64,000 nt of DNA, taken from NCBI GenBank assembly GCA_026745465.1, contig JACYXH010000022.1, positions 30,001 to 94,000 of the forward strand, read 5' to 3'. The notes beneath the pieces were generated by a model. It was not told the DNA's origin and made no database searches. It saw nothing but the letters and a program-made list of their open reading frames with translations. The position numbers and the translations under genes were made by a program. This DNA comes from Lota lota (taxonomy: Eukaryota; Chordata; Actinopteri; Gadiformes; Lotidae). Positions 6,341 through 64,000 of the stretch are shown in pieces (positions within the stretch are counted from its first letter, which is position 1; each line of letters begins with the position of its first letter).

Positions 6341-9300
6341 ATGGCGACTGGACAGACGGAACGCGGGGTCCCGCTGAGTAAGGTAAGGTTAACATATCAT
6401 CGGTATCGATTGGTGGAATTATGCCGGTACTAATCTTAACGACATACCAGGGGCGAAATCGATCCATGATCACCGCAGAAAAGAAAGCGGGGCGTTCCGG
6501 ACGTAACGGGCAACACTGCATTATTCCCAGAGCAACCAATGTCTTGTGTCGATAAAGTTTAAACCACACGTTTTAATGAAATTAAGTTCAGCATCAGAGT
6601 GCAATATTCACCTTTCTAATGCTACCATGTTCAATACCGTTTTATTATATTGGTAGTCCGTGTCAAGATGCTGCTCCAGCAGAAGGTGGCACGCCCTTGG
6701 CAACCGCCTATAAGACCTATGCCTTTAGCCGGCTCTGCATGTCAAGAGACTGCTCCAGCGGGTGTGGTGTATATGGGTGGTTCCTTTTAAAATGTATTTA
6801 TATGCAGGGCAGCACCAAATTGATTATCTGAAAAACATAAAACACACCTGTGTTTTAGTCCTGCCTTGAATTGTTCCATCATTATCGTTCATGACCGGCT
6901 TCAGAAACGTTTGTCCTCCGACTAATACTTAATCAATGATATTTTGCTGGAGTATTCCTATGAACAGAGAAGCTATTATAATAAAACCAGTCACAGTGAA
7001 GGAAATGGGAGAAAGGTTCACTTTTAAACTCTTAAAGTGATCATGTGTAAGATTTGCGCCTCTATTGGTTGCTAACATTTAGTTCGTTTTTTAATTAAAA
7101 ATTTTTTAAAAACTGAAGAAATCGCAACTGCTGTTGGTCTTGATGTGGCCCCTCCCACTTGCTGTTGGTCTTGATGTGGCCCCTCCCACTTGCTGTTGGT
7201 CTTAACTTTTACTAGTGCTGGCAGAGTTTGTGTTCACTGAAAGTATCCAATTACGCGCTTACAGATCCCTGCATCCAGCACCCTGATTGGTTGAAACAAA
7301 TAAAGTCAGATGGCATTTTGGAGCTTCTTTTGTGAGGCGTCTGCATAAAACCAGGGATTGGGGCGGGACGTAGCTTTTCAGAAATGGTAGAATTTGTCGC
7401 TGTGGCTAGGCGATATTTGAATCTGTCAAAAACCAAAGCTAGCTGTCAATCACGTGCTATGAGTTAGAGTTGACAATACTATATGTAACTATAGCTAACC
7501 CAATTTGGACCTAAAAGAGCTCATTTTACATTTTGTGGGAACTTTACCAGTAGAGGCAGTAGCATGACCTCAAATAATATCTCCATAGTCCAGTGAAGGC
7601 CAGATTTTAGATTGTATAATTATTTTCCTGCTCTCAAAATAGAAGCAAGCATTGTTCCTGTATAGGAAACTAAAATGAGTTTTGAGTTTATAAGCAAGAT
7701 GGTCAGTATGGGTTTGATAAGACAGCCTGCCGTCCGGCCATATTCTTAGATACGAGGATGGAACAATATTGATTAAATCACAATTAAGAGTACACAAGGG
7801 TTGATTGTGGGGTTGTTGTAGCAAATTAAATGACTGGTGGCTGGCTCGATTAAAGGCTGAGACAAAATGGATATCCGTAGTTGATTTATTTCATATGCTG
7901 CAGCACATAAAAGACACAGTTTCAAAGGCAACTCCACGCAGAGCAGAGTTCTCGAGAAAGCGCGCCGAGGACAGGAGGGAAGCCTTTTTATAAAGTGGGG
8001 CAAGCAGCATCTCAGAAATTACACTAGATGGCGCCATTTGACTGTCTATAACAGATTCGATGCCCAATTAAAGCCGGACATCTGGTTTGGGGAGAGAGCA
8101 TACAGTCAAGGCCAGACACAGATACATTGTTATGGAAAAAGGAGCTTGCTCAGGAGTTTCTCATATGGGAACAGAGCACCATGCAGGAATACAGACAGCT
8201 GTGGGGAGGTAGATAGTTGAAAAGACACATAGTACATCGAAATTGATTAGTTTTATCAAGCTGACCTCCGAATGGGCCTTGAGTCATTTTTCAACCACAG
8301 GGTAGACCGTGTGATCTAAAGATAAAATGCATGCATTTAATCATTTTAGAATTGAAAGCAATCAAGCTAATGAATTAACAGATTTCTGGAGGCCATTAAA
8401 GGTAATGTCTGACGTAATGTCACGTTATGTAATCTCCTTCTAATGAAATAGCCCCAAGTAACATAATGTTAACTTGCTAACTACCAATAAGATGAGTAGA
8501 CTAAGCAAATTGAACAAATACAAAAATGTATAGTTTTGTAATCAGTAATGGGCGTTCCCATTTCAGCTTAACCCAAAGTTTCTCCACACCAACTCTACCA
8601 GTCACACCTGGCCCTTCAGTGCTATTGCTGAACTCATAGGTGAGTCCTCCTGTAACTTTTGGTTTATGTGGCAGCATACATTAGTTTGAGTTTCTGGTTT
8701 GTAGAAGTGTGCTTTAAGTCGCCTAGAACCGGAAATTCACTTGACATCTGACAGAAGGCCAAATGTTTTACCAGAGACCTTCACAAATGCAGAGAATTTA
8801 TTTCTTCAAAATGTCTTTCAGCTAATTACAATATAGCAGCCATTTTATGTTTGTATAGACTTGAATTGAATAGTTTTTTCGTTATATTCTCCTTAATCCT
8901 TGCCGTAGACAATGCATATGATATTGATGCCAAAGAGATATGGATCGATAAGACCCAGATCAAAGACCAGGAGTGTCTAACCTTCATGGATAACGGAAAC
9001 GGACTCAGCTATGACATGATGCATCGGATGCTCAGGTGATAGTTGATCATTTACAATATCTATGATTATTTATAATATCACACCATCTGGGAATTCAGTT
9101 TATTGCTGACCGTGTCATGAGTTTAGTGGTTAATGCATGAACATATTTTCCCTTATAGCTTCGGATTCAGCGACAAAAAAGCTGTGAACGGCAAACATCC
9201 CATTGGAATGTATGGCAACGGTTTCAAGTCTGGCGCAATGCGTCTGGGCCAGGATGCCATCGTTTTATCCAAATCAGAGACTGACCTGTGTGTTGGCATG

Positions 9301-12300
9301 CTGTCACAGACTTACCTAAAGAAGACCGGAGTCGAGCACATCGCTGTTCCTATCATCAGCATTAAGAAACCAGAAGCAAATAAGTATATCCTTTTGAGCT
9401 TGTCAAATGGGTCTCAACTGTGTTCCAGGTCCTTGCTGTTGTGGGTTTTTGATCACTGTTATCAGGAAGTAAATTACTGTGGATATGTTAATCAAGTCAT
9501 ATTTGGTTCCTTCGCTAGGGCCTTATTAGGGGATATTAGTTATATTTGATTTTAGTATTTTTTTATTTGATTATAATTGTTAGCCCTTACCTTGCTCTCG
9601 CTTTCCAACATGAGAAATGGTTTATAATGTAATAATATTGTTCAGTTTGGATCTGGTTTCCCCTGCTATGACACCGATGTGAAAGGGGTCTGCTGGGTCC
9701 AAAGTGAGGAGAATATCGTTTATATCCACCAGGCCTAGTAAGAACTTCCTTGACCCGAGTGACTACTCAGTGTGTTGGAGGAGCACAGGGCCAGTCTGAG
9801 GGAAATACTGCGCTACTCACCCTTCAACACTCAGGAAGAGCTGCTTACTGCGCTCCAAGCTATCGAGTCCACCTGCTCCAGCACCGGGACCCGGATCATC
9901 ATCTGGAACCTCCGCAGGTCTGGGTTTATCCCCATGGTTACAGGCTCATCTGAAGGACCATTAACGCTTTAAGCCCACAGGACACTAAACAGGACATTAA
10001 ACAGTCTATGGTCGGCACACAAAATAAGGTTTTAGAATATTTGGGACCAAGATAGACCTATTGAGTCCTGTAATACAAAGCGAGCACAAATATACAGCGT
10101 GCATACATTAAAACTATATAATATGCCCTTTAAATCCACACAAACATTATCATTGATTTTACATGAAAATATCTCATATGCAAGCAAATGGTAAGATATG
10201 CTAAATTAATAATAGCTACTGTTATTATGAATCATTTTAAGTAATTTAGATTAATTTAATAAATAAATAATATCAAATATTAATACATATTTAGATAAGT
10301 CTACCAAGGGATACATTTTTTAAGTTACTATTTAGAATGTTTATATAAAGACTATTTTACCTTGTTTCATCTATTTGTATGTGCTATCTTTATGTCTTTG
10401 TTTTCATTATAGGACGTCTGAAGGGAATATGGAGTTTGAGTTCTCCAAAGATGATATCCGCATTCCCTCTGATGTCCTTAAATCAACGACTGAACCAGAC
10501 CAAAGACCAGAGCGATCAGACTCGTTCGTCCCTGAGAGTGACTTGTCGTTGCGTGTAAGTAGTAGCGACCTCGGCTGACCCCATGGCACACGTAAACAGC
10601 CTGTAGTTCTGGGGGAAGACCCCACATACCGAATGCAGAGAATGGGATCAGACGGTCATGATGCAACATTAACTGTGATCAAGATATTAAGATGACCGTA
10701 TTTCTAAAACCAGTTTAACACTTTGGTATTAACATTTTGAACATTTCACAAATGGGGATTTATAAGAAAACCTGATATCTGCATTGTAAAATGCTATATA
10801 CTTAAGCACTTTGTAAAGACCAAATAAATCAAATTTACTGATAAATAATATTACTATTTTTATGATGCTTGACTAGCGACTAGATGGGATTTATTTATCT
10901 AGTTGCTGTTGTATTGGTGATATACACACTTTAGTCTATGAAAGGTTGTATTTAGTTTTGTATCTATACTTATGAACGTAGGCATACTGCAGCGTCCTCT
11001 ACTTGAAGCCTCGTATGCAGATCAACATTCGAGGACAGAAGGTGGAGACTCAGCTCATCTCAGAGAGCCTTGCAATTAGGAAAAAGTACACCTACAAACC
11101 CAATGTTACAGTATCCTTTTCGTCCAGACACACAAACCTTCCAGCTCCTTCTTGCAAAGGAAGAAACCATTTATTAGTACAGTCTCTGCATTTAATCCAG
11201 GAGCAGTGGGCTGCCACAGTGTAGCGCCCGGGAACCAACTCCAGTTTTAGCATGCTTGTCTTGGTTATGGGAAGGCCAGGAGCTAGTGTTCTGTGGTTAT
11301 GTGTTATGGTGTGGGGGAAACCAGAGCACCCAGGTTAAACACAGTGGAAAACCCTCCTGATGGAACCCAGGAGCTTCTGAGGCAGCAGTGCTAACCACTG
11401 AACCACCGTGTTCCCCAACATCACAACATCCATCAGAGAGACAGATTCTTCACAACAGTCTTCTTGACCAGTGTGTGTGTGTGTGTATGTTTGGTTTATT
11501 CATGGAAGAAATGTTTTTCATTTTGTGAAGACTCTACATCAGTCTTCCTGGTCCAGTTTGTTCCTTAAGTCCGGTTCTAGAAACAAGAAATCCCCATCAC
11601 CTTTGGGTACAACGAGAATAACATGGACCAATATGGCATCATGATGTACTACAAGAACCGACTCATCAAGGCATATCATCGTGTCGGTTGTCAGCTAAAG
11701 GTGAGTGTGTGCCATAATTTAAAATGTGCCTTTTTATTAGGTCTTATTATTCATACGTTGGTGTTTGTTGTGGTAAACGTTGGTGTATGTGCTCCTAACA
11801 GGCTAACAACAGGCTAGGCATCGGAGTCATTGGTGTGATTGAGTGTAATTTTCTGGAACCGACTCACAACAAACAGAACTTCAACGACACCAATACGTAC
11901 AGGTAAGGCCTGTACCGTAATGGTGTTCAAATCATGATCTCACAATCAGGAACTCGTTTTTGACAGTTATCGTACTTTGTTTAGGTGTTGGTATACTACT
12001 TACTGTTACTATTTCGTCATTTAGCAGTCATTTTTCCACAAAGCAACAAGCAGTGAATTCAGATGTCTTTATGAGGTGGAAGAGGTTAGGATCTGGCTCT
12101 AGAGTGCCTACATGTAGACTGTCTTTATTGGGGTTTGAGCCCAGAACCTCTGGTCAACCACCCTAACCACTACACTGTCCCTCTTATCAAGACACAAGTC
12201 TGACTTTTTATGTTTGTTTTACAGGAACGCTATCAGAAATGTGGCAGGAAAGTTAGGAGAATACTGTAAAGAAATTTGGTTAAAGAGAAAGAAGAGCAAC

Positions 12301-14626
12301 CCCAGCGATAACGTGCCCGTTGAGGAAACAGAGTGAGTCCACAATCACAGCGTTTTGAGTACTTTAAGTATGGTCATAATAAAGTCCAAGTTACCTGTAT
12401 GATCTTTAATGGCTACAGCTAGATGTATCTCATGTTAACTGTTAGAACTTTATTCATTCACTGCACCCTCATACTGTGATACTCGTGGTTTTGTCAAGTG
12501 ATAAATCTGAAATCTTTTTGTGTTTTTCCCGGTCAAAGGTTATCAGCACTGCTTCCATTCAGAATAGTACAGGTCACCTGTATGTGGTCTAACAGGAACA
12601 TACAGAAAACTGTACATTGACTGACCTTGGCATTTCTGACAATTGTATTGTTTATGTTTACAGAGACAAAATGACTGGTGAATTAGAAGAGGTAAAGAGA
12701 ATATATATATTATACTGTATGTACTCTAAATTGTACATCAAATATGAATTAAAATGTGATTATCACAATAATACAAATAATGTTTATTCCATACTAATGT
12801 CATAAAAGCACTTCATGCAGATGAATAAGTTAAGGTAGCCTTTAATCATCAAGTCTTTATAATACTGTGTCTGCTAGTCAGGCAGGTGGTGGGTGTGAAG
12901 TAGTTTCTAGGTCTGCCTGACATTTCCACAAATATTCTTTATAATTCATGTATTGAATTACATAGTGAATTATGTTACGTGTAAATAGTGCTGCTACGAT
13001 AATTCTGGGTACTGAAACTGTCTTTTGATCCTCCCACCTCCACCCGAACACACCACAGACACCAAGAGAGGGAACCTCTGGTAAAATGTGATTTTGTATT
13101 ATCTGGGTGGTAAATACTTTATATTTACCTCATCTGTTTTCTTCACGCTCTGTCATTCTTTTTTTTGTTTGTGAGTAATAGCTGGTACAATATTTAATAT
13201 AATATTTATCTAGCATGCAGTGTGTCTACTAGCAGCAGTCATCTGGTAATAATGGATGTAGTCTCTCTGTCAAAACCCCCTCAAGGTATGACGGCCCCTG
13301 GGAACAGAACGGCGAAGAGAGCGAAGCCAAATGTTGAGAGAGAGTTAGAAATGCACATGAGCCTGAGAAGCTCTACGGCTCCAACAAACCCAGACCTACA
13401 CGAAAAGGTATGCTAGTTTGATTTAGTAGGTTGCAGGTGACTTGCCTTTTCGTAAGCTTTTCAGTGCCCAGTTGAATCCTCAGTTTCTCTGTGTACCTGA
13501 CAATAAAATACTTGAACCTGAGGGTAGGAAAATAATCTTGTTGCAATGAAATGTGTCTTTTGTACAAATGTTTGGTGAAGAATGATTGTGAGAAGGCCTG
13601 TGAAGCCCTTTGAGACCACAACCGTGATGGACTTTTATACAAATAAAATCAACACGACTTGTTGGTTGTTAGAACATCAAACACCGTGTCATTCCCCATT
13701 AGGTGAAGCAGTTGGAGGAGGAGAAGACCAGCATTTCTGCCGAGTGTGAAAATACCAAGTCAAGGTTAGTCTCTCACTCACTCACCAATTGTAAATCTAG
13801 ATCTATTATAAAAAAAATTGGTATACAATATGTATTATTCTATTTTTGTCTCTTGTCAACTCTGGAACAGTATGAAAGAGCTCCAAATAAAGGTACAGCA
13901 GTTGGAAGAGGAGAAAGCCAGCATTTCTGCAGAGTGTGAAAATGCCAAGTCAAGGTTAGTCTCTCACTCACTCACTCACTCACTCACTCACGTACGTACG
14001 TACATACATACATACATACATACATACATACATACATACATACATACATACATACATACATACATACATACATACATACATACATCTATTGTAGATTAAA
14101 AAAATTAAATGGTACACAATATGTATTATTATATTTCTGTCTCGTCAAATCTGGAACAGTCTGGTTAAATTGGTGGAGGAGAAAGCCAGTATTTCTGCTG
14201 CGCATGAAGAGACCAAAACAAGGTTAGTGTCGCTCTCTCTAATTGTAAATCTAGATCTATTATTAAAAAATGGTACACAATGTGTATTATTATATTTTTG
14301 TCTCTTGTCTGGAACAGTCTGACAGAGCTCCAAACAAGGGTACAGCAGTTGGAGGAGGAGAAAGCCAGCATTTCTGCAGAGTGTGAAAATGCCAAGTCAA
14401 GGTTAGTCTCTCTCTCTTACTCACTCACTCACTCATTGTAAATCTAGATCTATTATAAAAAAGGTACACATTATGTTTTATTATATTTCTGTCTCTTGTC
14501 AACTCTGACAGAGCTCAGAAACAAAATGGCTGCCCTTGTGAACGGGACCAAGTGAACTACCAGTGCAACATCATTGAGGAGATAATGGAACAGGTCCTCA
14601 GTAACAATGGTCCTACTTCACACTAG
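6341..14626 (+). CDS. morc3: MORC3-like ATPase A1, short form without CW zinc finger
   Basis: Eighteen exons join into 1800 nt, about 599 codons: 6341-6382, 8567-8639, 8909-9035, 9159-9385, 9767-9917, 10413-10554, 10982-11110, 11581-11700, 11802-11902, 12225-12332, 12664-12691, 13059-13080, 13286-13407, 13703-13764, 13871-13954, 14160-14222, 14318-14401, 14512-14626. The GHKL ATPase has AELIDNAYD (near residues 35-43), [10 protein letters not shown] and [11 protein letters not shown]5-like exons follow ([49 protein letters not shown]). MORC proteins are ATP-driven clamps that compact chromatin. The CW exon and the exon after it are absent. The 22-nt exon at 13059 is inferred from phase. The tail has four coiled-coil exons and ends [16 protein letters not shown], as in human MORC3. 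Exons 4-5 are split by an AT-AC intron. Identity is firm; tail exons are less sure. Confidence 0.85.
7127..7206. repeat. 31-bp tandem repeat, about 2.5 copies, intron 1 of A1
   Basis: Units of TGCTGTTGGTCTTGATGTGG plus CCCCTCCCACT. The same unit recurs about four times at 34128-34225, where it lies upstream of the A2 start codon rather than in an intron. Confidence 0.8.
7566..7800 (-). mobile_element. L2-like LINE fragment, late reverse transcriptase part
   Basis: The - strand reads residues typical of the C-terminal part of L2-clade reverse transcriptase: [20 protein letters not shown], then [15 protein letters not shown] and [11 protein letters not shown]. Only this part remains. It lies in intron 1 of A1; the same piece is in intron 1 of B1 (19794-20015). 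Confidence 0.7.
9386..9766 (+). other. Putative U12-type AT-AC intron 4 of A1
   Basis: No usable GT-AG pair keeps the frame equally well in all copies, but ATATCCTTTT at 9386 matches the minor-spliceosome donor. TTCCTTGAC at 9746-9754 matches the U12 branch consensus TTCCTTRAY. The intron would end AC at 9766, 13 nt after the branch adenosine. Joining gives KPEANK-FS-VLEEH in frame. Confidence 0.8.
13966..14084. repeat. (ACTC)n, (ACGT)n and (TACA)n microsatellites in A1
   Basis: The intron between two coiled-coil exons is almost wholly microsatellite: ACTC units, a few ACGT units, then TACA repeats of about 90 bp. The matching intron of A2 holds a TACA tract at 42955-43098. Confidence 0.95.
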
Positions 14627-15470: not shown

Positions 15471-17570
15471 CGCTTAATGCTGTTTAAAAAAAAGATTTTA
15501 ACAAAGTGTGTTTTCTTTTTCTTCTTCCTGTGTTGACTTTAGAGTACAGGCTACATTCAGATTGTGCTCTCTACACGGCCTTCTACACAAACGCCACGTT
15601 CTGAACTAAATACGCTGAGTAAACCTGGGTAGCGTTAAATGCTTTTCTAAAGACGAATGATGGATCAGATGGCATGCTCATGGTTGGTTTGAAGCAGGAG
15701 GGATTGACACTTAGGCTAGCAAAGATGAGTAGATATTTCTAAGAAGAACGTAATTCATGTATGTCCAAATAAACCGTGATCTATTGCCAAATATCTGCAC
15801 TTTGTAACGTAACTACTAACGTTGGCTTGCCTTGGTTATCTGCCTCATAAACAATGCGTATAACATTAGAGATGATAACATATTTGCTTGCAGCCAACGT
15901 TGTACGATATTAAGCTTGCTAACTGTATCAAGATGTTTCCTACCATAAATGTTACATGCATGCCTAGCTTACATGGTTGAAGCATTTTACAGTATTTCAA
16001 AACTTACCTGCAGGCGACGCAGGCGCGTCATCCCGGTGTTCCTTCTTTTTTCGCTGCTCTGTTCCCGACTCCTGTTGCCTTTTTGAAGCCATGTCGAGAA
16101 AACGAGTTACCGTCAGACTCGAGGTTGTCAGGTGCAATCAAAGAAACCGCACAATGATGGAGGGGGGTGGCACCATCATTAATTGTGTTATTACGAGCAA
16201 ATATGCATATCTTTGTATTGCCTGATGCCAATAATGGTGTAATCAATGATGCCAAGTGCAGTTGTTCTTCATCTTCAATTTAAATAATTCATCATTATGA
16301 TTGTTATGATGATGATCATAATTGAGCCGCCCCCTCCAGCACCTGGTGCCCTACGCGCAGCGCGTGGTGCGAGCGGCGGCCCTGGACATGTCCGTGATCC
16401 ACCCGCTTTGCAAATGTGGGGTGATTCTACCGTTGCAGCTCCCCCCACCAGTGACTGTTGTCCAAGCCCAGAAGCCTCTGATGTTACTCGGAGGCCAATC
16501 AAAGTTGGATGGTGGCCAGGGCACCTAGTGCTGGAGGGGGCACAATTTCCTTCACCCGTAAACCATACCATAACCCTAACCATAACTGGGTTGGTAACGA
16601 TTGGTTGCTAGCGTAAAACCCAATGAGCTGGACTAGGCCTAGAGAGGTGGAGCTGGACTAGGTCTAGATTGGTGGAGCTGGCCTAGGTCCAGAGAGGTGG
16701 AGCTGGCCTAGGTCCAGAGAGGTAGAGCTGGACTAGGTCCAGAGAGGTGGAGCTGGATGTCAAGCTCCCCCCATTAGACTCTGCAGTGAGGACCACTTGA
16801 CTTGAGCTGAAATAGCATATATTTACATATTTACTAATCATAGTTAGGGTTAAGGGAGGACCTACGTACCTTGACGTCATCATCATTGAAATGATTATAC
16901 GTAAAGATAAGGGAATTTGTATGTAGCCTTTTTGCACCTGGATTGATTAGTTCATTGTGTCACGCCGTCTACTGTCACGCCGTCCACTTCCGCCACCTAG
17001 CGGGCGCCGGCTGCCACTTCTGCCAGTGCCTCTCTGTTTACACACCTGCCGGCAATCTCCAATCAACGCTCCCTATTTCAGACGTGGATTCCTAGCAGCC
17101 GGCGCTAGTTCGTTGTTTACTCAACCTGTTAGTATCCGCGGTCCAAGCGTTTGGATGCTTGTCCCTTTCTCGGTACCTGCCCGTAACCTGTTCTCTCCCG
17201 GTGCTCAGCTGTCCGCAGGATTTCCTGCCCGTTGCCGAACCCCTGCCTGCCTGACCGCCTGCCCGTTGTCGAGCCCCTGCCTGCCTGACCGCCTGCCCGT
17301 TGCCGAGCCCCTGCCTGACCGACCGCCTGCCTGTTGCCGAGCCCCTGCCTGCCTCCCCGTTGCCGAGCCCTTGCCGTCTGAACACGGTTAGCTTAGCCCC
17401 CGGCTTGTCGGTACTCGCCCTTAATAAACTCCCTTGAACCTCTCCGCCGTCCCCGCCTCTCTGTGTCCTGCGTTTGGGTCTCCTCGCTCTGTTCACCATA
17501 ACAAATTGTAGCAATTTCTAAACCATTTTACTGATCAATTTCAAAACGTGTGTGGTTTTGTAAAAGGTTA
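15471..17570. other. A1-B1 spacer, duplicated after A2
   Basis: This spacer matches the A2 3' flank (about 45585-47058) closely. It holds a GC-rich block at 16322-16530 with short open frames on both strands that I do not recognise. It also holds a tandem array of about 28 bp (GAGAGGTGGAGCTGG) at 16624-16752; that array is shorter in the second copy (46681-46762). A solo-LTR-like element follows. No gene is supported. Confidence 0.55.
16968..17503 (+). mobile_element. Solo LTR-like fossil, possibly Ty3/Gypsy
   Basis: Begins TGTCACGCCG and ends CCATAACA (TG...CA), with a AATAAAC signal near 17423 and a short CTGCC-rich repeat inside. The flanks are imperfect five-base repeats (CATTG and AATTG). 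No internal retrotransposon genes are nearby, so it looks like a solo LTR fossil. The start of the same element is at 46967-47058 after A2, so it is older than that duplication. Family assignment is tentative. Confidence 0.5.
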
Positions 17571-17876
17571 GATTTTGGTGTTTGTGGCTCACATTTCATG
17601 GCAGTATTTTATTACTTGATTGTGGTTCCGCTACGACGCTAGAGGCGTTTATTAATGTAGGTCTGACTGCACTCTGTGAGGGTTGCGATTTAACTGACAT
17701 TTTATCTTTGGTTATTTGATGCACATATTAAGCTTCTGCGTATGATGTACTGTTTTACACGGGTTTCTGGTCAGGTTATGATGTGGGCTGGTTCGCATTG
17801 CATTGGGCGGGTTTTAAGTTGTGATTGAGCGGGAAACTGTCAGGCTGTTCCGCACTCAGTTTCAGTTCCAGAGAAC
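17571..17876 (+). promoter_or_regulatory. Upstream region of B1 with ISRE-like motif
   Basis: Homologous to the blocks before A1 and A3, starting at the equivalent of 6097. The segment GCTACGACGCTAGAGGCG recurs at 51225. AGTTTCAGTTCC is at 17858-17869, 7 nt before the start codon. Confidence 0.4.
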
Positions 17877-20800
17877 ATGGCGGCTGGACAGACGCAACGC
17901 GGGGTCCCGCTGAGTACGGTAAGGTTAACATATCATCGGTATCGATTGGTGGAATTATGCCGGTACTAATCTTAACGACATACCAGGGGCGAAATCGATC
18001 CATGATCACCGCAGAAAAGAAAGCGGGGCGTTCCGGACGTAGCGGGCAACACTGCATTATTCCCAGAGGAACCAATGTCTTGTGTCGATAAAGTTTAAAC
18101 CACACGTTTTAATGACATTAAGTTCAGCATCAGAGTGCAATATTCACCTTTCTAATGCTACCATGTTCAATACTGTTTTATTATATTGGTAGTCCGTGTC
18201 AACAGGGCCGGCACTAGCCACTTTGGTGCCCTAGGCGAGATTAGGATTTGGAGCCCCACAACATAACTTTTACATTTTAAGCATAGATGTAAACATAGTT
18301 ATTCCTTTAGTAAGGATAAAATATCATTAATTACAGCACATCAGGCAATAAACACCTCTGAAGCATAAATTATAGATACCGGTTGACCAGTACTGTTCAA
18401 TTACATGAGTGAAAAAGGTCAAGAATCTTGGTTTAAATAATGTTTTGATGGGAATAAGTTATTCTAGTTTTGTGTCCTTTAGACAACTTGAAAAAATTAG
18501 AGATGGTTGCAGTCTAAAATATAATCTAATAGATTCCCTAGCACCATAAGTGGACAAGACATTCCAGATGTACAGGGTTACGTATGTTCATAACTGATAG
18601 TGAATATTTTATATAACTATAGCAAAGATGTGTCAGGATTTGGCCATATTGACATTAGTTACACAACTGCAGCTGTAACATACAATTAACAGAACTTACC
18701 TGCTGCAGGTTGTGTTTCACTGGAGGTAGCTGGAGTGCTGGATGTTGCTTGACCTGCAGGCTGTGTTTCACTGGAGGTAGCTGGAGTGCTGGATGTTGCT
18801 TGACCTGCAGGCTGTGTTTCACTGGAGGTAGCTGGAGTGCTGGATGTTGCTTGACCTGCAGGCTGTGTTTCACTGGAGGTAGCTGGAGTGCTGGATGTTG
18901 CTTGACCTGCAGGCTGTGTTTCACTGGAGGTAGCTGGAGTGCTGGATGTTGCTTGACCTGCAGGCTGTGTTGCACTGGAGGTAGCTGGAGTGCTGGATGT
19001 TGCTTGACCTGCAGGCTGTGTTCAAACATACAGTTCATCCATAATGTTACACCACTGCATTAATTCCTGTCATTCTACTGCATATAAGGCAGCACTATAC
19101 AAATCAACTTTATATAATTTGACTAAGGCCTACATTTAATTAGTAACAAGGTTTAACTAACATTCAACAATAATAATAATAGCAGTGTATTATCAATTAC
19201 ACAGAGACCACAAATAATTGGCTGAACATTCATGTGATTCAAGTGATCATGTGTAAGATTTGCGCCTCTATTGGTTGCTTACATTTACTCAACATAATAA
19301 AAAAAAACTTATTTCAATAAGTGTATTTCTAAAGTCTACATGGTGTTCTTTCGAAACCATTACTGGCAGGGTTAGCCTAACCCTAACCCTTACAGTTTAC
19401 TAGTGCTGGCAGAGTTTGTGTTCACTGAAAGTATCCAATTACGCGCTTACAGATCCCTGCATCCAGCACCCTGATTGGTTGAAACAAATAAAGTCAGATG
19501 GCATTTTGGAGCTTCTTTTGTGAGGCGTCTGCATAAAACCAGGGATTGGGGCGGGACGTAGCTTTTAAAAAATGGTAGAATTTGTCGCTGTGGCTAGGCT
19601 AGAGCTTCACTACAGCAGCGCTAGGCTACCTTGATATTTGAATCAGTCAAAAACCAAAGCTAGCTGTCAATCACGTGCTATGAGTTAGAGTTGACAATAC
19701 TATATGTAACTAAAGCTAACCCAATTTGGACCTAAGAGAGCTCATTTTACATTTTGTGGGAACTTTACCAGTAGAGGCAGTAGCATGACCTTAAATAATA
19801 TCTCCATAGTCCAGTGAAGGCCAGATTTTAGATTGTATAATTATTTTCCTGCTCTCAAAATAGAAGCAAGCATTGTTCCTGAATAGGAAACCAAAATGAG
19901 TTTTGAGTTTATAAGCAAGATGTTCAGTATGGGTTTGATAAGACCGCCTGCTGTCCGGCCATATTCTTAGATATGAGGATGGAACAATATTGACTAAATT
20001 ACAATTAAGAGTACACAATGGTAGATCAATAGTGTGTGATCTAAAGAGAAATGCACACATTTAATCTTTTTTTTCATTCAAAGCAATCAAGCTAATGTTT
20101 TAACAGATTTCTGGAGGCCATTAAAGGTATGATATGTAATGTCTGACGCTAGGGGTCTCTCAATCAAACAATAACAAAATGTAGTTTGACGACATCGTGA
20201 AGTAGTGGGGAACCATGGGAGTTGTCTTCACCACCGTTGCTGGTGAAAATCTATCTGACTCAGACAGAAATCATGTTCACGGACGAGTTATGTATTAAAG
20301 TTGTATTCACGTTACGTTTATTCACGTTATGTAATCTCCTTCTAATGAAATAGCCCCAAGTAACATAATGTTAACTTGCTAACTACCAATAAGATGAGTA
20401 GACTAAGCAAATTGAACAATTACAAAAATCACCAGAACATTTACAAAAATGTATAGTTTTGTAATCAGTAATGGACGTTCCCATTTCAGCTTAACCCAAA
20501 GTTTCTCCACACCAACTCTACCAGTCACACCTGGCCCTTCAGTGCTATTGCTGAACTCATAGGTGAGTCCTCCTGTAACTTTTGGTTTATGTGGCAGCAT
20601 ACATTAGTTTGAGTTTCTGGTTTGTAGAAGTGTGCTTTAAGTCGCCTAGGACCGGAAATTCACTTGACATCTGACAGAAGGCCAAATGTTTTACCAGAGA
20701 CCTTCACTAATGCAGAGAATTTATTTTTATGTTTTTATTAACCTAATAACAATATAACAATATAGCAGCCATTTTATGTTGGTATAGACTTGATTTGAAG

Positions 20801-43048: not shown

Positions 43049-43079
<31 letters not shown>

Positions 43080-48932: not shown

Positions 48933-48953
48933 TAATTATTTTGTGAACTGCAG

Positions 48954-49387: not shown

Positions 49388-49425
<38 letters not shown>

Positions 49426-49655
49426 AGATCTAATATAATTAAATGCACACAATTGGAATCGACCACAGTATTTATAAGACTATGTTTGTCTCTTATGAAC
49501 TCTGTTAAAGTCTGGTGGAGCTCCGAAAAAACGTGGGACGCCTTTTGTTGTTGCAACAAGTCCCGTTGGAACTGGACCAAGTTGACTAAGAGTGCGGCGT
49601 CATTGACGAGATATTGGAACAGTTCCTCAGTACATATGTTCCTAGTTCACACTAG
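48954..49655 (+). pseudogene. morc3: B2, 3' remnant of a MORC3-like gene
   Basis: Two exons remain. 48954-49382 (429 nt) reads RSKRPQPTIPQSKSKIPKRN, TPMSLRSHAALEAR, then a coiled coil IQAQEQQDRLMELLQSVCNE to [17 protein letters not shown]. 49511-49655 reads SLVELRKNVGRLLLLQQVPL then ELDQVD, has a TAA at 49587, and remains recognisable to VPSSH and TAG at 49653. It lacks ATPase, S5 and CW exons. The first exon combines parts that are separate exons in A and B copies, and the last keeps the full LRxxxGxLL motif known from the human MORC3 C-terminus. Its 3' flank matches that of B1. It may still be transcribed from elsewhere, but nothing supports a start. Confidence 0.8.
49388..49422. repeat. 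(CA)n microsatellite in B2 intron
   Basis: About 17 CA units directly after the donor of the 429-nt exon. Confidence 0.95.
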
Positions 49656-50419
49656 TACCATTGACCCATGTTGGTTACTACGATAATGGATGCAGACAAA
49701 ATTTAAAGGGAGGCCTAAAAGACTACAGAATGTACACATGTGATATTGGACACACTTGTTGCATTCTAACTGTAGTTATTGTTTGTTGCTTGAACTTTTG
49801 TTGGAAATTACGAAACATATCGATAATCGTAAATATATTAAACATATAAAATCCAGTATCTGTGGCTGTCCCAAGCCTGTGATAAACCCGTCCAATCATT
49901 TCATTCGGCCCGAATGAAATGATTGGATTGTCTGTCTACCCACCTAACCGTGCCCTTGCACACATTGCGCATGAACAGGCTTCCACGAGGCTAGGTAGAC
50001 TGATTGATAAAGCTAGTGAACAAGGCAGATGTCAGAAATTCCTATCTGGCAGAAAGGCTTTAGGAAGTCAGGTGAAGTAGCATAAAGAGCGACAAAGTAC
50101 ACTACAGACTGCATCCCTTCTATTAAAGGTACACTATGTAGGATTCTGTGGCATCTAAAGGAACGGACTTCATTGATGGAATATTATATTCATACGATTG
50201 TTTAATCTGAAAGTAACAGTAACAGTAAAAGTAAAGTAACAGTAGTGAAAATAAGAATATTGCTTTTGTTACCTTAGAAAGAGCCCTATAAATCTATATA
50301 GCGAGCTGGTCCTCTTCCACGGAGCCCACCATGATGCACCGCCATGTTTCTACAGTGGCCCAGAATGGACAAACGGCTCTAGAGAGGATGTGTTTGAAAA
50401 TATGGTTATTAATCAAATC

Positions 50420-50945: not shown

Positions 50946-51097
50946 CATTCAGGCATGGTTGGGGGTATGACGTGTGTGTTTTCTTGTGTGGTTGTGTGTT
51001 AAATAAAAAGACAGTTCTCGTAGTCGTGCAGTGTATGGGGCACGAGAGTTGTAATAACTTTTAACCCTGGTCTCCGTCTGGTTCTTAGGGTTAAGGG

Positions 51098-54220
<3,123 letters not shown>

Positions 54221-57200
54221 ATGGCGGCTGGACAGACGCAACGCGGGGTCCCGCTGAGTACGGTAAGGTTAACATATCATCGGTATCGTTTGGTGGAATT
54301 ATGCCGGTACTAATCTTAACGACATACCAGGGGCGAAATCGATCCATGATCACCGCAGAAAAGAAAGCGGGGTGTTCCGGACGTAGCGGGCAACACTGCA
54401 TTATTCCCAGAGGAACCAATGTCTTGTGTCGATAAAGTTTAAACCACACGTTTTAATGATAGTGAGCTTGTTAAAAGCATCAGAGCACAATGTTCACCAT
54501 GTTAATACCGTTGTCATACCGTTATTGTACTGCTAGTGTCAAGGCGCTGCTCCAGGGGGGAGGGGTGGGCGGATCGATCCCAAAATATCGATACTTCAGA
54601 TACTACGTCTCGCTTTTGAAGATCGATTCTAGATTCAATAGGATCGATACCAGTTTCCGTTTCTCTCTTCTACGTTGAACCCATTTCATAAAGACTAGAA
54701 CAAAAGCCAGGATACAATGAGAACGAGGCTCCATCTGTACTGAAAACAGGTTCCCGTTCAGTGGGGTGTACGAGGTGGTTTCCGTTTTGTGACAAAGTCA
54801 CATTCATTTTATTCCCACCAATGTCGAGCTTTGAAGGCTCTAGCCTGCGAATAAATCAGTTGAACCAATCCCATTCAGGTATCTTTGTCATGACAGTCAC
54901 CATGGTCACTGTACATGTTGTAGGACATGGCAAAGGTAACAGCCTAGTTACTTTCTCACACAGTCCTCTTATTGCATCCACAGTAAAGTGTCAGCTCCTC
55001 CGTTTTGGGACTCAGTGACTCTGTGGTCTCCTGCTGGTTATTAGGTGTTTTTGTCTATGTGCCTGCTTCTGTTGTGCCCCTGTCTACGCCCCTCACCTGT
55101 ACACCCTGCCATTGTCATTTTCCTGCTCACCTGTTTGACATTATGCTAATTACTCAGCCTATTGATGTCCTGTGCTTTCAGTTCCTCATTGTCCGTTTGT
55201 TCTTATGTTTGCTCTTAGCTTACCTAGTGAGTTCCCTCTGCCTGTATTCTGCCTGCCTGTCTGATTCCTGCCTGTTTGATTCCTGCCTGCCTGTTTGATT
55301 CCTGCCTGTTTTTTGGATTTGCCTACGGTTTTTACCTTTGCCTGCCTCTGGACTGCTCTACTGACAGTGACCTGGCCCTTTTCTTTGTGCAGATTTTTTG
55401 TGTTTTTGCATTCCTCCTGAGAAACAAGAGTTATTCTGCTTTTGGGTTCGTATTTCACTCCCTTCCTGACAGTAAACTACATTCACAGACCTATAATTAT
55501 CGTAGTGATCATTCATCTCGATAGCGGTCAGCGCTACAAGCCGATGTTTTCTTGCACTGCGGGACGTGAATATAGGTTGCTTTTGATGACATGAAGGTGT
55601 GCAGTTGTATCGCAACAGTTTCGTTTTTGGATGCAAGCTTTCTCTGAAAGAATAGCCTCATTTAGTAACCAAACAGGGAAACTACCTCAAACATGAACGT
55701 CTCCAAAACATGGATGCATTAAAGAATGCACACACACTTATCCTAGTCCCCCTCATCCGCCAACTGCCATTCGCTGCACTATTTTACACTTGGATTAAAA
55801 AGTGGAACTCCATTATAAATGAATCCTGATGTGTTGTCTTCCCACCAGCTACGCCAACAGGTCCCATTAACTCTTAAGTGAGAGTGTAGTCTGGTTTTTA
55901 CTATTTAACATAATTGACAGACGTATAACCTTTTTGACAGACGTTTTTAGTCCCTTCCACTCTAAGGTCAGCCGGATCACGTTTGTTTTGGTTCCGCCAC
56001 TCAGGTTGTTTCCAGTAGAGACCTATTCTGTGTAACACGCGCCTAAATATCCTTGCCCCCAGGAACATGATTGGTCAAAACTAATTTAAGGCAACAGAAT
56101 CTGAAATGCCCTGGTCACAGATTTGAGCTCGTCTAATTTGTGAGCCTACCAATGCACAAACTATATGTCCTGGTAGAGCCGGAATATCCATTCTGCAACA
56201 GGGAAAATACAGCAGGGCCAAGTCATACTGTAACTATTCAAACAAATATATTAAACTATCAAAGTTTTGTTTCTTTGCCATTATCTTAGTTACGTATAAC
56301 ACATCTATCCATGAAGAGTGCTTATTATGTTCCCTGATCTCACGAAATAGAATGTCAGAACTTCAATACAAACGGAAGGAAGCAATGGTCCTGGTTTTAG
56401 TCCTTGTCCAGTAAAGTTGGTTTCATATTTGATAATTGGTTGATATTCATTTTATATTTTCAATAACTTATTTATCCACATATGAGAACATTGGTTAATA
56501 GTTTTGTAATCGGAGGACGATGAGGAACAATTTACATCTTTTAATTTCCATTTCTGAGATACTTTGTTTTAATGCAAATTTGTGCAAATAGTTTGCCTGT
56601 CATCACTGAGAGGTACAACATCCATTTTGTTTTGCCATCAATATCTCAACTACAATTAGGTCAAAGATATGCTTGCATTTATTACAATGAAAACATATTC
56701 AACATTCTAATTTCAATGTGACGCAGAGGGGTCTAACCAACGTTAATCTCTTCTATGTTGGGTCCCTCAAATTCTTAAATTTTTCCATATTTCCCTTTGA
56801 AAATGTCTATTCCTTTTTTAATATTGTAAAATGCAATAGCTCTCAGACCATGTGACCCACTGAGGTCAAACCAGGTTTAATCTATCCTTATGGCGTAACC
56901 CCTTTAATTTACAAATTATCATCATTCCATATAATTTTCTTTCTTCTTTCACTCTGAATATTGACGTCTGTTGGTAATTTAAGAGGTCTTTGAGCTATGT
57001 ATTTAGCAATATTCAGAAAGGAATATACATTTTTGAAAGGGAAATAAAGGATAAATTAGATTAAAGTTAGTTTGACCCCTCTGGTGACCTCTGGGTAGTC
57101 TAATTAAGCTATCATAGGCCCATGTTGGCAGCATTAAATGTGGTGTCTAATTACAGCATCATTTTGCAGTAAGCGTCTAACTAGCATATTTTGAATGTGA

Positions 57201-60200
57201 TATGGCATAGTATTTGATGTGGATCATGCACAATGGTGTCTAGTAGTGTGTTAGGGACTCCGATTTGGTTTCTATATGTAGTATAATTTTGTATAATAGT
57301 GTCTAATTACAATATATTTGTGATCTAATACGGCATTATATGCAGTTTCTAATTAGGGTATAACTGTTTGTTTATTTTCTAATCAAGAACATTATTTCTT
57401 GGTTTTGTCAAATTGTATACAAAGTACAGCTTTTTACATCTTATTCGTGTACCGTAAAATAAAGTGTGACCAGAATTATTTACATCCTTTGATTTCCATT
57501 TCTCAGACACTTGCAAATTAGTGACAATAGGTTTCCTATGTAATCTCTGACATCCATTTTATTTTTGCCATCAACAGCTCAACAACAATTAATAGCATCA
57601 AAGATTAGCTGTTTTAGTTTTTTGGTGTATATTTGTTTTTCTATTTTCCTTAGCTTATGAATTATTCACAGGAGAACATTGGTTAATAGTTTTGTAATCG
57701 GGGGACGATGAAGACCAATTTACATCCTATGATTTCTTTTTCTAAGATCCTTTCTTTTAATGCAAATAAGTGCCAAGGTACGAAGGTTTAATCAGTTTTC
57801 CCATCAAAGTCCAAAAAGGAATAAACGATGAAACAGGTCCATTTTCAATTTCTCTTTATTAAACCAAAAACAGACTTCAAAGTCCCTCAAAGGTTGGAGT
57901 ATTTGATTTCACGGTTTCTCATTCCTGAAATAAGGTGCTTAATACCCAAATCGTTTGGAGCCATGCAGTCATGAGATCTACTCTGATGTGTATTCGATTT
58001 TAATTAAGGTTAAGGATGTTTGATATTTTGGCAATTTGAATCGTAGCCTAATACCTTTGTAGCAAAGGTCAATGCTACATGCCAGCTAGGTGGCTGCCAC
58101 ACTCTTTATCTTGGGCTCCTCCAAACAAAAAACGCAGGGTGGTGATGGGAAAGCTGGTTTATTGTAAGTTTTGCAGGTCATAAACATGGCAAGTGTGATC
58201 AACTGCCATGCAGGAGATCTCCCGAGTATGTGTGTGGAGATGGCACAACAGGTGTGCAGCCTCACCCAGCCCCAAAGTCCAATCAGACTCGGCCAGGTGA
58301 GACTGCTTAAACCAGTTATCATCCACACATACTCCCACAGCCTTATAAATGGTAATAAAAAAGGTTACTTATTTAAAAGACTATTATGCTCAACTGTGTC
58401 AAAAGCCATAAGTCATAAATAGTTCAGCACAATGTTAACATTATTAACCTCGATAAAGGCACGGAGTCGGGAGTTTACCAAGGATTCAATCATTTTAGAT
58501 AAACAGGATAGTTTAATATAGGTCGATAATTATTGAGATCATTGGTATCACCACCCTTATGCAAAGGAACTACCTGGGCTGTTTCCATAACGGTGGGATC
58601 TTACCAGTAGTGTTTCACTGTTTTCCAAAATCTCTCTCCATTACCATTAGTTGGAAAATGACGACAGTAGATTTAGCCTTCCTATCCATCCTACTAAGGT
58701 CATCCTATATCTGCCTTCTGAACGTCTGCTCGTCAGCTGGAGTTCCAGTAGCCCGTGCACTACACCAGACTGGTTTCTATAGCGAGGAGCTAGAGACAGC
58801 TCCCGTGAACACCATGGGTTTGACCTGTTTTATTCTAAAGGTCTTAAGTGGAGCAAGCTTGTCATTAATGCAGGACAATTCATGAGAAAAGTGTTGAGCG
58901 GAGTCTGGGTCTGGCATAGCAGAGGTTCATTCAACTCTTGAATTCTGTAAATCATTGAGAAAGTCCCGCTCATTTTAGTTTATAAAAATGTCTTTTAGGA
59001 TTGTTTTGGAATTTCTGATGCAGACTATTGGGCAGTGGTCACTGATATCCAGAGAGAGGACACCAGAGGCAGAGTAGTTTGGGGTTTGATAGTAAGAATG
59101 AGGTCTAGCAGTGTGGATTCATCAGGGTTTCTCATGTTTGGTCTTCTTGGTTTGGACATGAGTTGGGATGGATTTAGTTGTAGACAGATGTCTTATAGCT
59201 TGTCAGAGTCAACCATGAATATTGATATCAGATATTTGATCCTGATGAATGTCCCTTCCCTTGAAGTAATTTTTGTGTGAATCACCCTGGTGTTGTGTGA
59301 TCACTAACGAGCGTTCTCATTTCAGCTTAACCCAATGTTTCTCCACACCAACTCTACCAGTCACACCTGGCCCTTCAGTGCTATTGCTGAACTCATAGGT
59401 GAGTCCTCCTGTAACTTTTGGTTTATGTGGCAGCATACATTAGTTTGAGTTTCTGGTTTGTAGAAGTGTGCTTTAAGTTGCCTAGATCCGGAAATTCACT
59501 TGACATCTGACAGAAGGCTAAATGTTTGACCTGATACCTTCACAAATGCAGATAATTTCTTTCTTCAAAATGTCTTTCACCTAATTACAATATAGCAGCC
59601 ATTTTATGTTGGTATAGACTTGATTTGAAGCGTTTTTTGTGATATTTTCCTTAATTCTTCCCGTAGACAACGCATACGACCCTGATGTCAATGCCAAACA
59701 GATATGGATCGATATGATCCAGATCAAAGACCAGGAGTGTCTAACCTTCATGGATAACGGAAACGGACTCAGCTATGACAGGATGCATCGGATGCTCAGG
59801 TGATAGTTGATCATTTACAATTTCAATGATTATTTATAATATCACAACATCAGGGAATTTAGTTAATTCACGACCGTGTCGTGAAGTTAGTGGTTAATGC
59901 ATCAACATATTTCCCCTTTTCCCTTATAGCTTCGGATTCAGCGACAAAAAAGCTGTGGATCACATACAACCCATTGGAATGTATGGCAACGGCTTCAAGT
60001 CTGGCTCAATGCGTCTGGGCAAGGATGCCATCGTTTTATCCAAATCAGAGAATGACCTGTGTGTTGGCATGCTGTCACAGACTTACCTAGAGAATACCGG
60101 AGCCGAGCACATCGCTGTTCCTATCATCAGCATTAAGAAACCGGAAGCAAATAAGTATATCCTTTTCAGCTTGTCAAATGGGTCTCAACTGTGTTCCAGG

Positions 60201-63200
60201 TCCTTGCTGTTGTGTGTTTTGGATCACATTTATCATGAAGAAAATACTGTGGATATGTTAATCAAGTCATATTTGGTTCCTTCGCTAGGGCCTTATTAGG
60301 GGATATTAGTTATATTTGATTTTAGTATTTAGTTATTTGATTATAATTGTTAGCCCTTACCTTGCTCTGGCTTTCCAACATGAGACATGGTTCATAATGT
60401 AATAATATTGGTCAGTTTGGATCTGGTTTCCCCTGCTATGACACCGATGTGAAAGGGGTCTGCTGGGTCCAAAGTGAGGAGAATATCGGTTATATCCACC
60501 AGGCCTAGTAAGAACTTCCTTGACCTGAGTGACTACTCAGTGTATTGGAGGACCACAAGGCCAGTCTGGAGGACATACTGCGCTACTCACCCTTCGACAC
60601 TCAGGAAGAGCTGCTTACTGCGCTCCAAGCTATCGAGTCCACCGGCTCCAGCACCGGGACCCGGATCATCATCTGGAACTTCCACAGGTCTGGGTTTATC
60701 CCCATGGTTACCGGCTCATCTGAAGGACCATTAACGCTTTAAGCCCACAGGACACTAAACAGGACATTAAACAGTCTATGGTCGGGACACAAAATAAGGT
60801 TTTAGAATATTTGGGGCCAAGATAGATAGTCCTGTAATACAAAGGGATCAACAATATACAGCCTGCATACATTTAAACTATATAATATGGCCTTTAAATA
60901 TACGAAAACATTATCATTGATTTAATATGAAAATATCTAATATACAAGCAAATGGTAAGATATGCTAAATTAATAATAACTACTGTTATTATGAATCATT
61001 TTAAGTTATTTAGATAAATTTAATAAATAAATAATATCTAATAGTAATACATATTTAGATAAGTCTACCAAGGGATACATTTTTTAAGTTACTATTTAGA
61101 ATGTTTACATAAAGACTATTGCAAGATCATTTTACCTTGTTTCATCTATTTGTATCTGCTATCTTTATGTGTTTATTTTCATTATAGGACGTCTGAACTG
61201 AATATGGAGTTTGATGATATCCGTATTCCCTCTGATGTCCTTAAATCAACGACTGAACCATACCAAAGATCAGAGCGATCAGACTCGTCCGTCCCTGAGA
61301 GTGACTTCTCGTTGCGTGTAAGTAGTAGCGACCTCGGCTGACCCCATGGCACACGTAAACAGCCCGTAGTTCTGGGGGAAGACCCCACATACCGAATGCA
61401 GAGAATGGGATCAGACGGTCATGATGCTACATTAACTGTGATCAAGATATTAAGATGACCGTATTTCTGAGACCACAGTTTAACGCTTTGGTATAAGTAT
61501 ATTAATGTTAATGGTAAAATTTTCAACATTTCAGACATGGGGATTTATAAGAAAACCTGATATCTGCATTGTAAAATGCTATATACTTAAGCACTTTGTA
61601 AATACCAAATAAATCAAATGTATTTACTGATAAATACAATTACAATTTTTCTGATGCTTGACAAGCGACTAGATGTGATTTAATGGCTTATTTGCTGTTG
61701 TTTTAGTGATGTGTACTTGTATGTGTATATGAAAGGTTGTATTTCGTTTTCTATCTATACTTATGAACGTAGGCATACTGCAGCATCCTCTACTTGAAGC
61801 CTCGTATGCAGATCAACATTCGAGGACAGAAGGTGGAGACTCAGCTCATCTACAAGAGCCTTGCAAATAGGAAAAAGTACACCTACAAACCCAATGTTGT
61901 GGTATCCTTTTCCACAGACACACAAGACTTTCCAGCTCCTTCTTGCAAAAGAAGAAACCATTTATTAGTACAGTCTCTGCATTTAACCAAGGAGAAGTGG
62001 GCTGCCACAGTGTAGCGTCCGGGAATCAACTCCAGTTTTTAGCATGCTTGTCTTGGTTATGGGAAGGCCAGGAGCTAGTGGTCTGTGGTTATGTGTTATG
62101 GTGGGGGGGAAACCAGAGCACCCAGGTTAAACACAGTGGAAAACCCTCCTGATGGAGCCCAGGACCTTCTGAGGCAGCAGTGCTAACCACTGAGCCACCG
62201 TGTCCCCCAACATCACAACATCCATCAGAGAGACAGATTCTTCACAACAGTCTTCTTAACCAGTGTGTGTGTGTGTGTTTGGTTTATTCATGCATGAAAT
62301 GTTTTTCATTTTGTGAAGATTTACATCAGTCTTCCTGGTCCAGTTTGTTCCTTAAATCACGTTCTAGAAAGAACAAATCCCCATCACCTTTGGGTACAAC
62401 ACGAAGAACAAGGAGCAATATGGCATCATGATGTACTACAACAACCGACTCATCAAGGCATATCATCGTGTCGGCTGTCAGCTAAAGGTGAGAGTGTGCT
62501 TCTGAGCGATATTTGAAAATGTGTAGTAGTTCTTATTATTCATACTTCATTGGTGTTTGTTGTGGTAAACGTTGGTGTATGTGCTCCTAAAGGCTAAGAG
62601 CAGGCTAGGCATCGGAGTCATTGGTGTGATTGTGTGTAATTTTCTGGAACCGACTCACAACAAACAGGACTTCAACGACACCAATACGTACAAGTAAGGC
62701 CTGTACTGTAATGGTGTTCAAATCATGATCTCACAATCATGAATTCGTTTTTGACAGTTATCGTACTTTGTTTAGGTGTTGGTATACTACTTACTGTTAC
62801 TATTTCGGTATTTAGCAGCCATTTTTCCACAAAGCAACAAGCAGTGAATTCAGATGTCTTCATGAGGTGGAAGAGGTTAGGATCTGGCTCTAGATTGCCT
62901 ACATGTAGACTGTCTTTATTGGGGTTTGAGCCCAGAACCTCTGGTCAACCACCCTAACCACTACACTGTCCCTCTTATCAAGACACAAATCTGAATTTTT
63001 ATGTTTGTTTTACAGGAACGCTATCAGAAATGTTGCAACCAAGTTAGAAGACTACTGTAAAGAAATTCGGTTCAAGAGAAAGAAGAGCAACCCCAGCGAT
63101 AACGTGCCCGTTGAGGAAACAGAGTGAGTCCACAATCACAGCGTTTTGAGTACTTTAAGTATGGTCATAATGAAGTCCAAGTTACCTGTATGATCTTTAT

Positions 63201-64000
63201 TGGCTACAGCTAGATGTATCTCATGTTAACTGTTAGAACTTTACTCATTCACTGCACCCTCATACTGTGATACTTGTGGTTTTGTCAAGTGAAAAATCCA
63301 AAACATTTTTGTGTTTTTCCCGGTCAAAGGTTATCAGCACTGCTTCCATTCAGAATAGTACAGGTCACCTTTATGTGGTCTAATAGGGACATACAGAAAA
63401 CTGTACATTGACTGACCTTGGCATTTCTGACAATTGTATTGTTTGTTTACAGAGACGAGATGACTGATGATGAATTAGAAGAGGTAGAGAAAATATATAT
63501 ATTATACTGTATAAACTCTCAATTCAATCAAATATGAATTAAAATGCTTCATAATTTTTTTTACGATTATCACAATAATTCTCATGAATGTTTATTCCAT
63601 ACTAATGTCATAAAAGCACTTCTTGCAGATGAATAAGTTAAGGTAGCCTTTAATCATCAAGTCTTTATAATACTGTGTCTGCTAGTCAGGCAGGTGGTGG
63701 GTGTGAAGTAGTTTCCAGGTCTGCCTGACATTTACACAAATATTCTTTATAATTCAGGTATTGAATTACATAGTGAATTATATTATGTGTAAATAGTGCT
63801 GCTACAATAATTCTGAGTACTGAAACTGTCTTTTGATCATGGCAACCCGACCTCCACCCGAACACACCACAGACACCAAGAGAGGGAACCTCTGGTAAAA
63901 TGTGTTTTTGTATTATCTGGGTGGTGAATACTTTATATTTACCTCATCTGTTTTCTTCATGTTCTGTCGTTGTTTTTTTTGTTTGTTTGGAAGTAACAGC
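54221..64000 (+). CDS. morc3: MORC3-like ATPase A3, CW-less, runs off the window
   Basis: Exons seen: 54221-54262, 59326-59398, 59667-59799, 59930-60156, 60537-60687, 61188-61317, 61773-61901, 62368-62487, 62593-62693, 63016-63123, 63453-63483, 63873-63894; all phases agree. The 3' coiled-coil part is outside. GHKL motifs IDNAYD (across exons 2-3), [10 protein letters not shown] and [11 protein letters not shown] are intact. Exon 2 has NPMFLH where the others have NPKFL. Exon 4 has AVDHIQPIG for AVNGKHPIG. Exon 3 ([15 protein letters not shown]) is of B1 type. The acceptor at 62592 is AAAG rather than AACAG. No CW exon follows 63123. Intron 1 has grown to 5.1 kb by insertions. Whether it is active is unknown. 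Confidence 0.83.
54540..56340. mobile_element. A3-specific insertions in intron 1
   Basis: About 1.8 kb with no counterpart in A2 intron 1; alignment resumes at AACTTCAATACAAACGGAAG (34866 and 56360). The first 120 bp carry GATCGATCC and ATCGATAC pairs like a hAT-type MITE. 55200-55400 is a CTGCCTG-rich stretch as found in some fish LTRs. Ends were not defined and no transposon protein was recognised. Confidence 0.45.
58068..58340 (-). mobile_element. Second solo LTR fossil of the same family
   Basis: Reverse orientation relative to 53038, starting TGTAGCAAAGG and ending ACTCCCACA on the + strand. The A2 intron has the empty site (CCTAATGCCTTATAAATGG near 36620). Flanks ACCTT and GCCTT fit a five-base duplication. 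Confidence 0.7.
58341..59010 (-). mobile_element. L2-like LINE fragment in A3 intron 1
   Basis: Homologous to 36640-37450, same orientation, with some deletions. It was therefore present before the A2/A3 duplication. Confidence 0.65.
60157..60536 (+). other. Putative U12-type AT-AC intron 4 of A3
   Basis: Donor ATATCCTTTT at 60157, branch site TTCCTTGAC at 60516-60524, AC end at 60536. Elements are the same as in A1, B1 and A2. Confidence 0.8.

Follow-up and report, generated by a model that had tools for sequence, protein, structure and literature searches.

A 64,000-nucleotide stretch of the Lota lota genome (the window; positions 30001-94000 of contig JACYXH010000022.1, hereafter C22) contains part of a tandem array of MORC3 homologues that begins next to dop1b. 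On balance, we lean towards reading the array as a MORC3 locus expanded in tandem between dop1b and chaf1b into interferon-linked restriction or guard genes, CW-free forms among them. The source genome searched comprises 575 Mb in 867 contigs, three further ones of which (C21, C23 and C535) bear on the array.

Units were detected by comparing the window with itself, by tblastn with a human MORC3 query, and by splice-level gene models. The original prediction of five MORC3-like units downstream of dop1b in one orientation was borne out: four ATPase genes with open exons 1–10 in splice-level models (A1, B1, A2 and A3) and a remnant (B2) all lie on the forward strand, and a DOP1_C match identifies the flanking dop1b (Table 1). 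Pfam found HATPase_c_3 and Morc6_S5 in all four spliced proteins and zf-CW in one, B1, as expected if A1, A2 and A3 are CW-less and B1 carries the CW exon. B1, the sole full-length query, scored 631 bits against human MORC3 (chain 6o1e), with ATPase and CW aligned, compared with 488 bits against MORC4 and 221 bits against MORC2. By similarity, the window genes classify as MORC3 homologues, MORC3 being the nearest of these three relatives to B1. Beyond 12332, the tentative A1 model continues through eight more exons with coiled-coil-like repeats to a stop, and this tail has weak Pfam matches to several coiled-coil families, none above cut-off. Further coiled-coil exons probably follow exon 12 of B1 to ~31500. 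B2 proved to be the B-like 3′ remnant that had been proposed: it is a coiled-coil open reading frame (ORF) with a stop codon inside a conserved C-terminal segment, and no ATPase or CW exon was found between it and A2.

The array extends well beyond the window. Exon 4 has 18 matches in the whole source genome (E<=0.001), 10 on C22 and 8 on C23, and none outside these two contigs; the neighbouring sequence thus holds more units, C22 having 10 ATPase copies versus four in the window. On both contigs the array is flanked on the left by DOP1_C and on the right by CAF-1_p60_C (chaf1b), at ~30 bits each and above cut-offs; the right flank of C22 rests on the chaf1b match. C22:1-3000 matches both C21:96553-99546 (100%, rounded; C21 is 114,488 bp long) and C23:368-3363 (99%), and the right end of C23 is found at 99% on C535, which also has a chaf1b-type match of ~30 bits. 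The zf-CW genes elsewhere in the genome are three single matches without such contig pairs. Two arms between shared flanks, together with unpaired zf-CW genes elsewhere, strongly suggest that C22 and C23 are two alleles of one locus.

C23, of which 107,497 of 203,497 bases were read, differs from C22 in copy number and order (8 versus 10 exon-4 copies), an allelic difference if the contigs are alleles. Its dop1b flank (97.6%) leads into a B1-like gene (pieces of 97.4–98.4%), and the A1 unit is missing there. Over exons 2–10, the C23 copy h1 matches B1 best (98.1%); h2, h3 and h5 reach at most 94.4%, 94.9% and 91.1% with any C22 copy, and these further copies have no clear partner. A second B1-like gene on C23, h4, has a frameshift in exon 5. 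The alignment of exons 2–10, and with it the analyses built on it, omits h4 for this frameshift and h6 as partial; exon 3 of g7 and exon 8 of h5 entered it with splice sites shifted by hand.

The gene models predict two protein classes, a CW class with ATPase, S5, CW and coiled coil, and a CW-less class with an open ATPase. Six CW exons lie on C22, after B1, g5, g6, g7, g8 and g10, and all six keep both aromatic-cage Trp residues; none is present after A1, A2, A3 or g9, and downstream of A3 no CW exon precedes the next gene. The A class is MORC3-derived and lacks the full MORC3 architecture, CW being missing. In a tree of exons 7–10, the CW-less A1, A2, A3, g9, h2 and h3 group together (support 0.97). 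The class signal was quantified as the ratio of between- to within-class divergence, with permutations that treat related genes as exchangeable, so that the p values are descriptive: the ratio is 2.20 in exon 7 (p 0.001), 1.11 in exon 8 (0.10), 1.68 in exon 9 (0.001) and 1.96 in exon 10 (0.009). In exons 2–6 it is 1.03, 0.95, 1.07, 1.15 and 1.22 (p 0.43, 0.70, 0.15, 0.049 and 0.048) and 1.10 when these are combined (p 0.023); the ATPase heads are thus not wholly class-free. In g6 a second exon 10 precedes the CW exon, which makes its membership uncertain; the divergence test treated g6 as a CW-class gene, whereas the fixed-difference list of that test omits it. Exons 7–9 of g6 (C22:122520-123503, loci L011 and L012) are unlike those of other copies and partly closer to human MORC3, and g6 may keep an older transducer, with the second exon 10 and CW behind it.

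The copies have recombined. Among the ten C22 copies, to which this test and the selection counts are confined, the pairwise homoplasy index (PHI) is 0.448 versus 0.565 expected (p = 0.0005, the minimum for 2,000 permutations). Self-comparison of the window confirmed the direct repeats reported earlier, both that between the 3′ flanks of A1 and A2 (15521-17052 and 45582-47059, 93.7%) and that between those of B1 and B2 (31694-34704 and 51385-54367, broken into three segments with identities of 96.9, 93.7 and 97.5%); the latter spans the B1 3′ flank plus the 5′ end of A2, its counterpart being B2/A3. The inference once drawn from them, that the repeat unit is a two-gene AB dimer, has to be abandoned, because the 5′ flanks in the window group differently (A1 with B1, A2 with A3), units outside it follow no alternating order, and B2 matches g7. 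The B2–g7 match, the best on C22, is 96.6% over 1,045 bp, and B2 has no match to B1 exons at a 250-bit cut. Scored by whether a CW exon precedes the next ATPase copy, the order is - + - - + + + + - + on C22 and + - - + + + + + on C23, the last three by position only.

Exons 2–10 are open in all ten C22 copies. For 268 inferred changes and a nonsense fraction of 0.044, the chance of no stop is ~6e-6, shared ancestry ignored. The ratio of amino-acid to silent polymorphism (pN/pS) is 0.735 when pooled and has a median of 0.76 across 45 pairs; five of the 45 exceed 1, and so do some 20-codon windows. Codons 301–360 show a deficit of amino-acid changes (p = 0.026), and one four-residue stretch is strikingly variable among copies (NGKH, RGKQ, RGKH, DHIQ, NNIH, DNIQ, DQIQ, NNIQ). 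All five ATPase motifs are present in 13 of 14 checked copies, h3 having a changed DNGNG motif.

Candidate interferon control elements lie at fixed positions in the 5′ regions. Motif types tried first were the interferon-stimulated response element (ISRE), a looser IRF form and the gamma-activated site; a longer ISRE core was used later. This core, AGTTTCNNTTTC, occurs exactly 14 times in 329,597 bases of C22 and C23 (C22 minus masked bases, plus the bases of C23 that were read), and 13 of these fall at two morc3 places: site 1, which lies 20 bases upstream of the start codon (7 of 15 first exons), and site 2, which lies in intron 1, 430 bases downstream of the start codon (6 of 15). Gene copies with an exact site 1 include g6, g8 and g10 on C22 and h1, h2 and h4 on C23. 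At least one exact core is present in 12 of the 15 first exons (14 gene starts plus an orphan, hx; g5 and h6 have no exon 1 and were excluded). Order-1 Markov sequence yielded 0.75 cores per 197 kb (mean of 20 runs). As the copies are related, the 13 sites amount to two events. A core with one mismatch stands at -19 in A1, B1 and A3. The orphan exon hx, at C23:81639, has an exact core, and the next recognisable exon is exon 12 at C23:82410. Site 2 lies in a stretch with 34 listed matches elsewhere in the genome (40 of 129 candidates scored), of which 27 span the position of the site. The A3 intron-1 repeat around it (window 54561-54701) occurs at many places in the genome and is a possible transposon-borne interferon element.

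Excerpts of published work on MORC3 indicate how such genes could act. The CW domain of human MORC3 keeps the ATPase off DNA until H3K4me3 is bound, and influenza NS1 binds this CW (PMC10612106, PMC7596504); herpesvirus ICP0 degrades MORC3, freeing interferon (PMC12409349); human MORC3 acts as a repressor at a tandem-repeat enhancer of IFNB1 (PMC13373173); and MORC3 behaves as an interferon-stimulated gene in bats, weakly so in human and mouse (PMC10472940). If the copies are expressed and their proteins active, they would be ATP-driven chromatin silencers or restriction factors like human MORC3, with an antiviral role, some switched by interferon via ISREs. CW-class members would be autoinhibited until CW binds H3K4me3. 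CW-less members would be beyond holding or recruitment by CW, and could be constitutively DNA-competent or escape viral CW-binding proteins. Unequal crossing-over would add and remove copies, and gene conversion would carry sequence between them, giving alleles with 10 and 8 copies, and a single viral antagonist could hardly remove many non-identical copies. A stronger version, that MORC3 turned into an interferon-wired, haplotype-variable multigene guard system of shuffled ATPase heads with CW-regulated and CW-free tails, seems to us possible but rather doubtful; were it true, an antagonist hitting CW or one head could not silence the system, and partial loss would still report infection.

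Of the original suggestion of an expanded, diversifying immune guard family, the expansion and diversification hold, and an immune role is indirectly suggested by the interferon elements, the difference in gene content and the raised pN/pS. Several observations weigh against interferon-linked guard genes. Site 1 had first been indicated by a looser core (0.27 per kb), and the long ISRE core was picked afterwards; just under half of the first exons (7/15) have an exact site 1, site 2 sits within a dispersed repeat, and A1, B1 and A2 lack an exact core. Pooled pN/pS stays below 1 (0.74). Over all codons, 200 amino-acid versus 68 silent changes represent a slight deficit of amino-acid changes (p = 0.049), and 22 versus 3 in exon 5 is not significant (p = 0.15), so that a claim of positive selection there was dropped. 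The C-terminal exons differ between copies and may be decayed. In excerpts of a mouse study, a Morc3 CW mutant is defective in silencing endogenous retroviruses (ERVs; PMC8516933), so the CW-less forms could be inactive rather than freed. Individual copies are also damaged: g5 has no exon 1, h4 is frameshifted, h5 lacks the usual exon 7 donor, and the DNGNG motif of h3 is altered.

The damage in g5, h4 and h5, together with the B2 remnant and the orphan exon 1 on C23, would also be expected if unequal crossing-over had simply multiplied a chromatin gene whose copies are redundant and partly decaying in near-neutral churn, and a pooled pN/pS of 0.74 indicates weak constraint. We consider such churn improbable, since frames are open in 10/10 C22 copies and ATPase motifs intact in nearly all copies checked. 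Defence against retroelements rather than viruses, with diversified MORC3 copies each directed at other families of transposons and the interferon elements playing no more than an incidental part, is a more serious competitor, though still an unlikely one. Mouse Morc3 silences ERVs through Daxx and H3.3, according to the same excerpts (PMC8516933), and a dispersed repeat is present in one or more introns of the array. However, retroelement defence fails to predict an exact ISRE core at -20 in 7/15 first exons, and MORC3 is not known to contain a reader of specific DNA sequences on which diversification of copies could act. Finally, the presence of one locus on two contigs of one assembly could reflect an artefact, either a single MORC3 multiplied or haplotypes placed in tandem. 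This is very improbable: C22 copies are 85.7–97.1% identical over exons 2–10, with in-frame length differences, versus 97–99% between contigs in the flanks and B1, and each contig has many copies between the same two flank genes. Misassembly inside the window was rejected on the same grounds, and wrongly joined haplotypes, named at the outset as what would overturn the array, do not fit copies that differ by 3–14%. In a variant of this view, the whole locus would have been truly duplicated in tandem, C22 and C23 being the two duplicates; an allelic relationship is more likely, as both overlap the same left contig, as alleles would.

Human MORC3 is a single gene beside DOP1B and CHAF1B. The array keeps these flank genes, and the alignment with 6o1e runs through ATPase, S5 and CW from one end to the other; it departs from human MORC3 in its number of ATPase copies (10 and 8), its CW-less class, its short repeats of coiled-coil exons and its ISRE cores at 12/15 first exons. 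It resembles the haplotype-variable immune clusters MHC, fish NLR, finTRIM and KIR in its tandem copies, gene conversion, allelic content difference and mixture of open genes and remnants, and differs from them in that its members are nuclear chromatin ATPases. At least two MORC3 genes, morc3a and morc3b, are named in other fish; a tandem array, a CW-less class and an allelic difference set the present locus apart from those accounts in the excerpts available. Papers on carp (PMC10762839), trout (PMC5946108) and sturgeon (PMC11395957) mention morc3 or morc3a and, in the same form, no array, and titles and abstract openings revealed no fish MORC3 array in the literature searched, most subscription journals lying beyond it. 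Excerpts also describe MORC3 self-guarding against ICP0 (Gaidt et al. 2021, via PMC12409349, PMC13373173): the protein family is the same and the idea that loss triggers interferon could apply, whereas an interferon gene target and a viral antagonist belong to the system described there. Human and mouse work treats MORC3 as one gene with a double task, restriction of viruses and guarding of interferon. The ATPase copies of this fish, 8–10 on each allele, partly shuffled, some CW-less and many with interferon elements near their starts, are a natural experiment on the purpose of CW autoinhibition; the array bears on whether guard proteins diversify like sensor families, and makes the question of whether MORC3 guarding predates mammals directly testable.

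Table 1. Features of the array in window coordinates.
Feature	Position	Strand	Basis or remark
dop1b exon, left flank gene	3957-4103 (C22:33957-34103)	+	DOP1_C (PF24598), 32.0 bits
5′ repeat at A1 exon 1	6138-6666	+	Equals 17677-18202, 97.5%; shorter at 34496-34704 and 54153-54459
A1, CW-less, 18-exon model, 623 aa	6341-14626	+	ATPase and S5 in exons 1–10, 6341-12332
B1, exons 1–12	17877-26066	+	Exons 1–10, 17877-25171
CW zinc-finger exon of B1	25429-25557	+	Pfam zf-CW on spliced protein
A2 exons 1–10, CW-less	34558-41481	+	3′ exons to ~43630 tentative
B2, remnant of a CW-class gene, reduced to its 3′ part	48844-49686	+	Coiled-coil ORF
A3 exons 1–10, CW-less	54221-63123	+	3′ end outside window
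ISRE core AGTTTCCGTTTC, intron 1 of A3, within dispersed repeat	54652-54663	+	Exact motif match
Intron 4, U12-type AT-AC	A1 9386-9766; B1 21320-21747; A2 38575-38955; A3 60157-60536	+	Gene models; U12 consensus
Intron 7, U12-like GT-AG	A1 11111-11580; B1 23840-24280; A2 40271-40727; A3 61902-62367	+	Gene models; U12 consensus

Ordinary U2 sites were considered for intron 4 and rejected; U12 AT-AC fits the four window genes and further modelled copies. No Rfam family reached its gathering score in the window, and Pfam gave no match above cut-off for seven raw ORFs at the dop1b end. No exon 1 was recognised for g5 (C22:93124-98666), the copy after A3, which might be transcribed by read-through from A3.

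Minisatellites lie in and around the array (window 509-1018, 2022-2318, 3661-3990, 18703-19022 and 22531-22827); given that human MORC3 represses tandem-repeat enhancers, self-regulation is conceivable. The tails of A1 (13703-14401) and A2 (42876-43422) contain repeated short coiled-coil exons with matching phases, adjoined by TACA/CATA microsatellites. In B1, a 357-bp direct repeat (27485-27841 and 28557-28913, 97.8%) seems to hold one coiled-coil exon and one TPRE-type exon, suggesting that the tail may grow by duplication of exon pairs.

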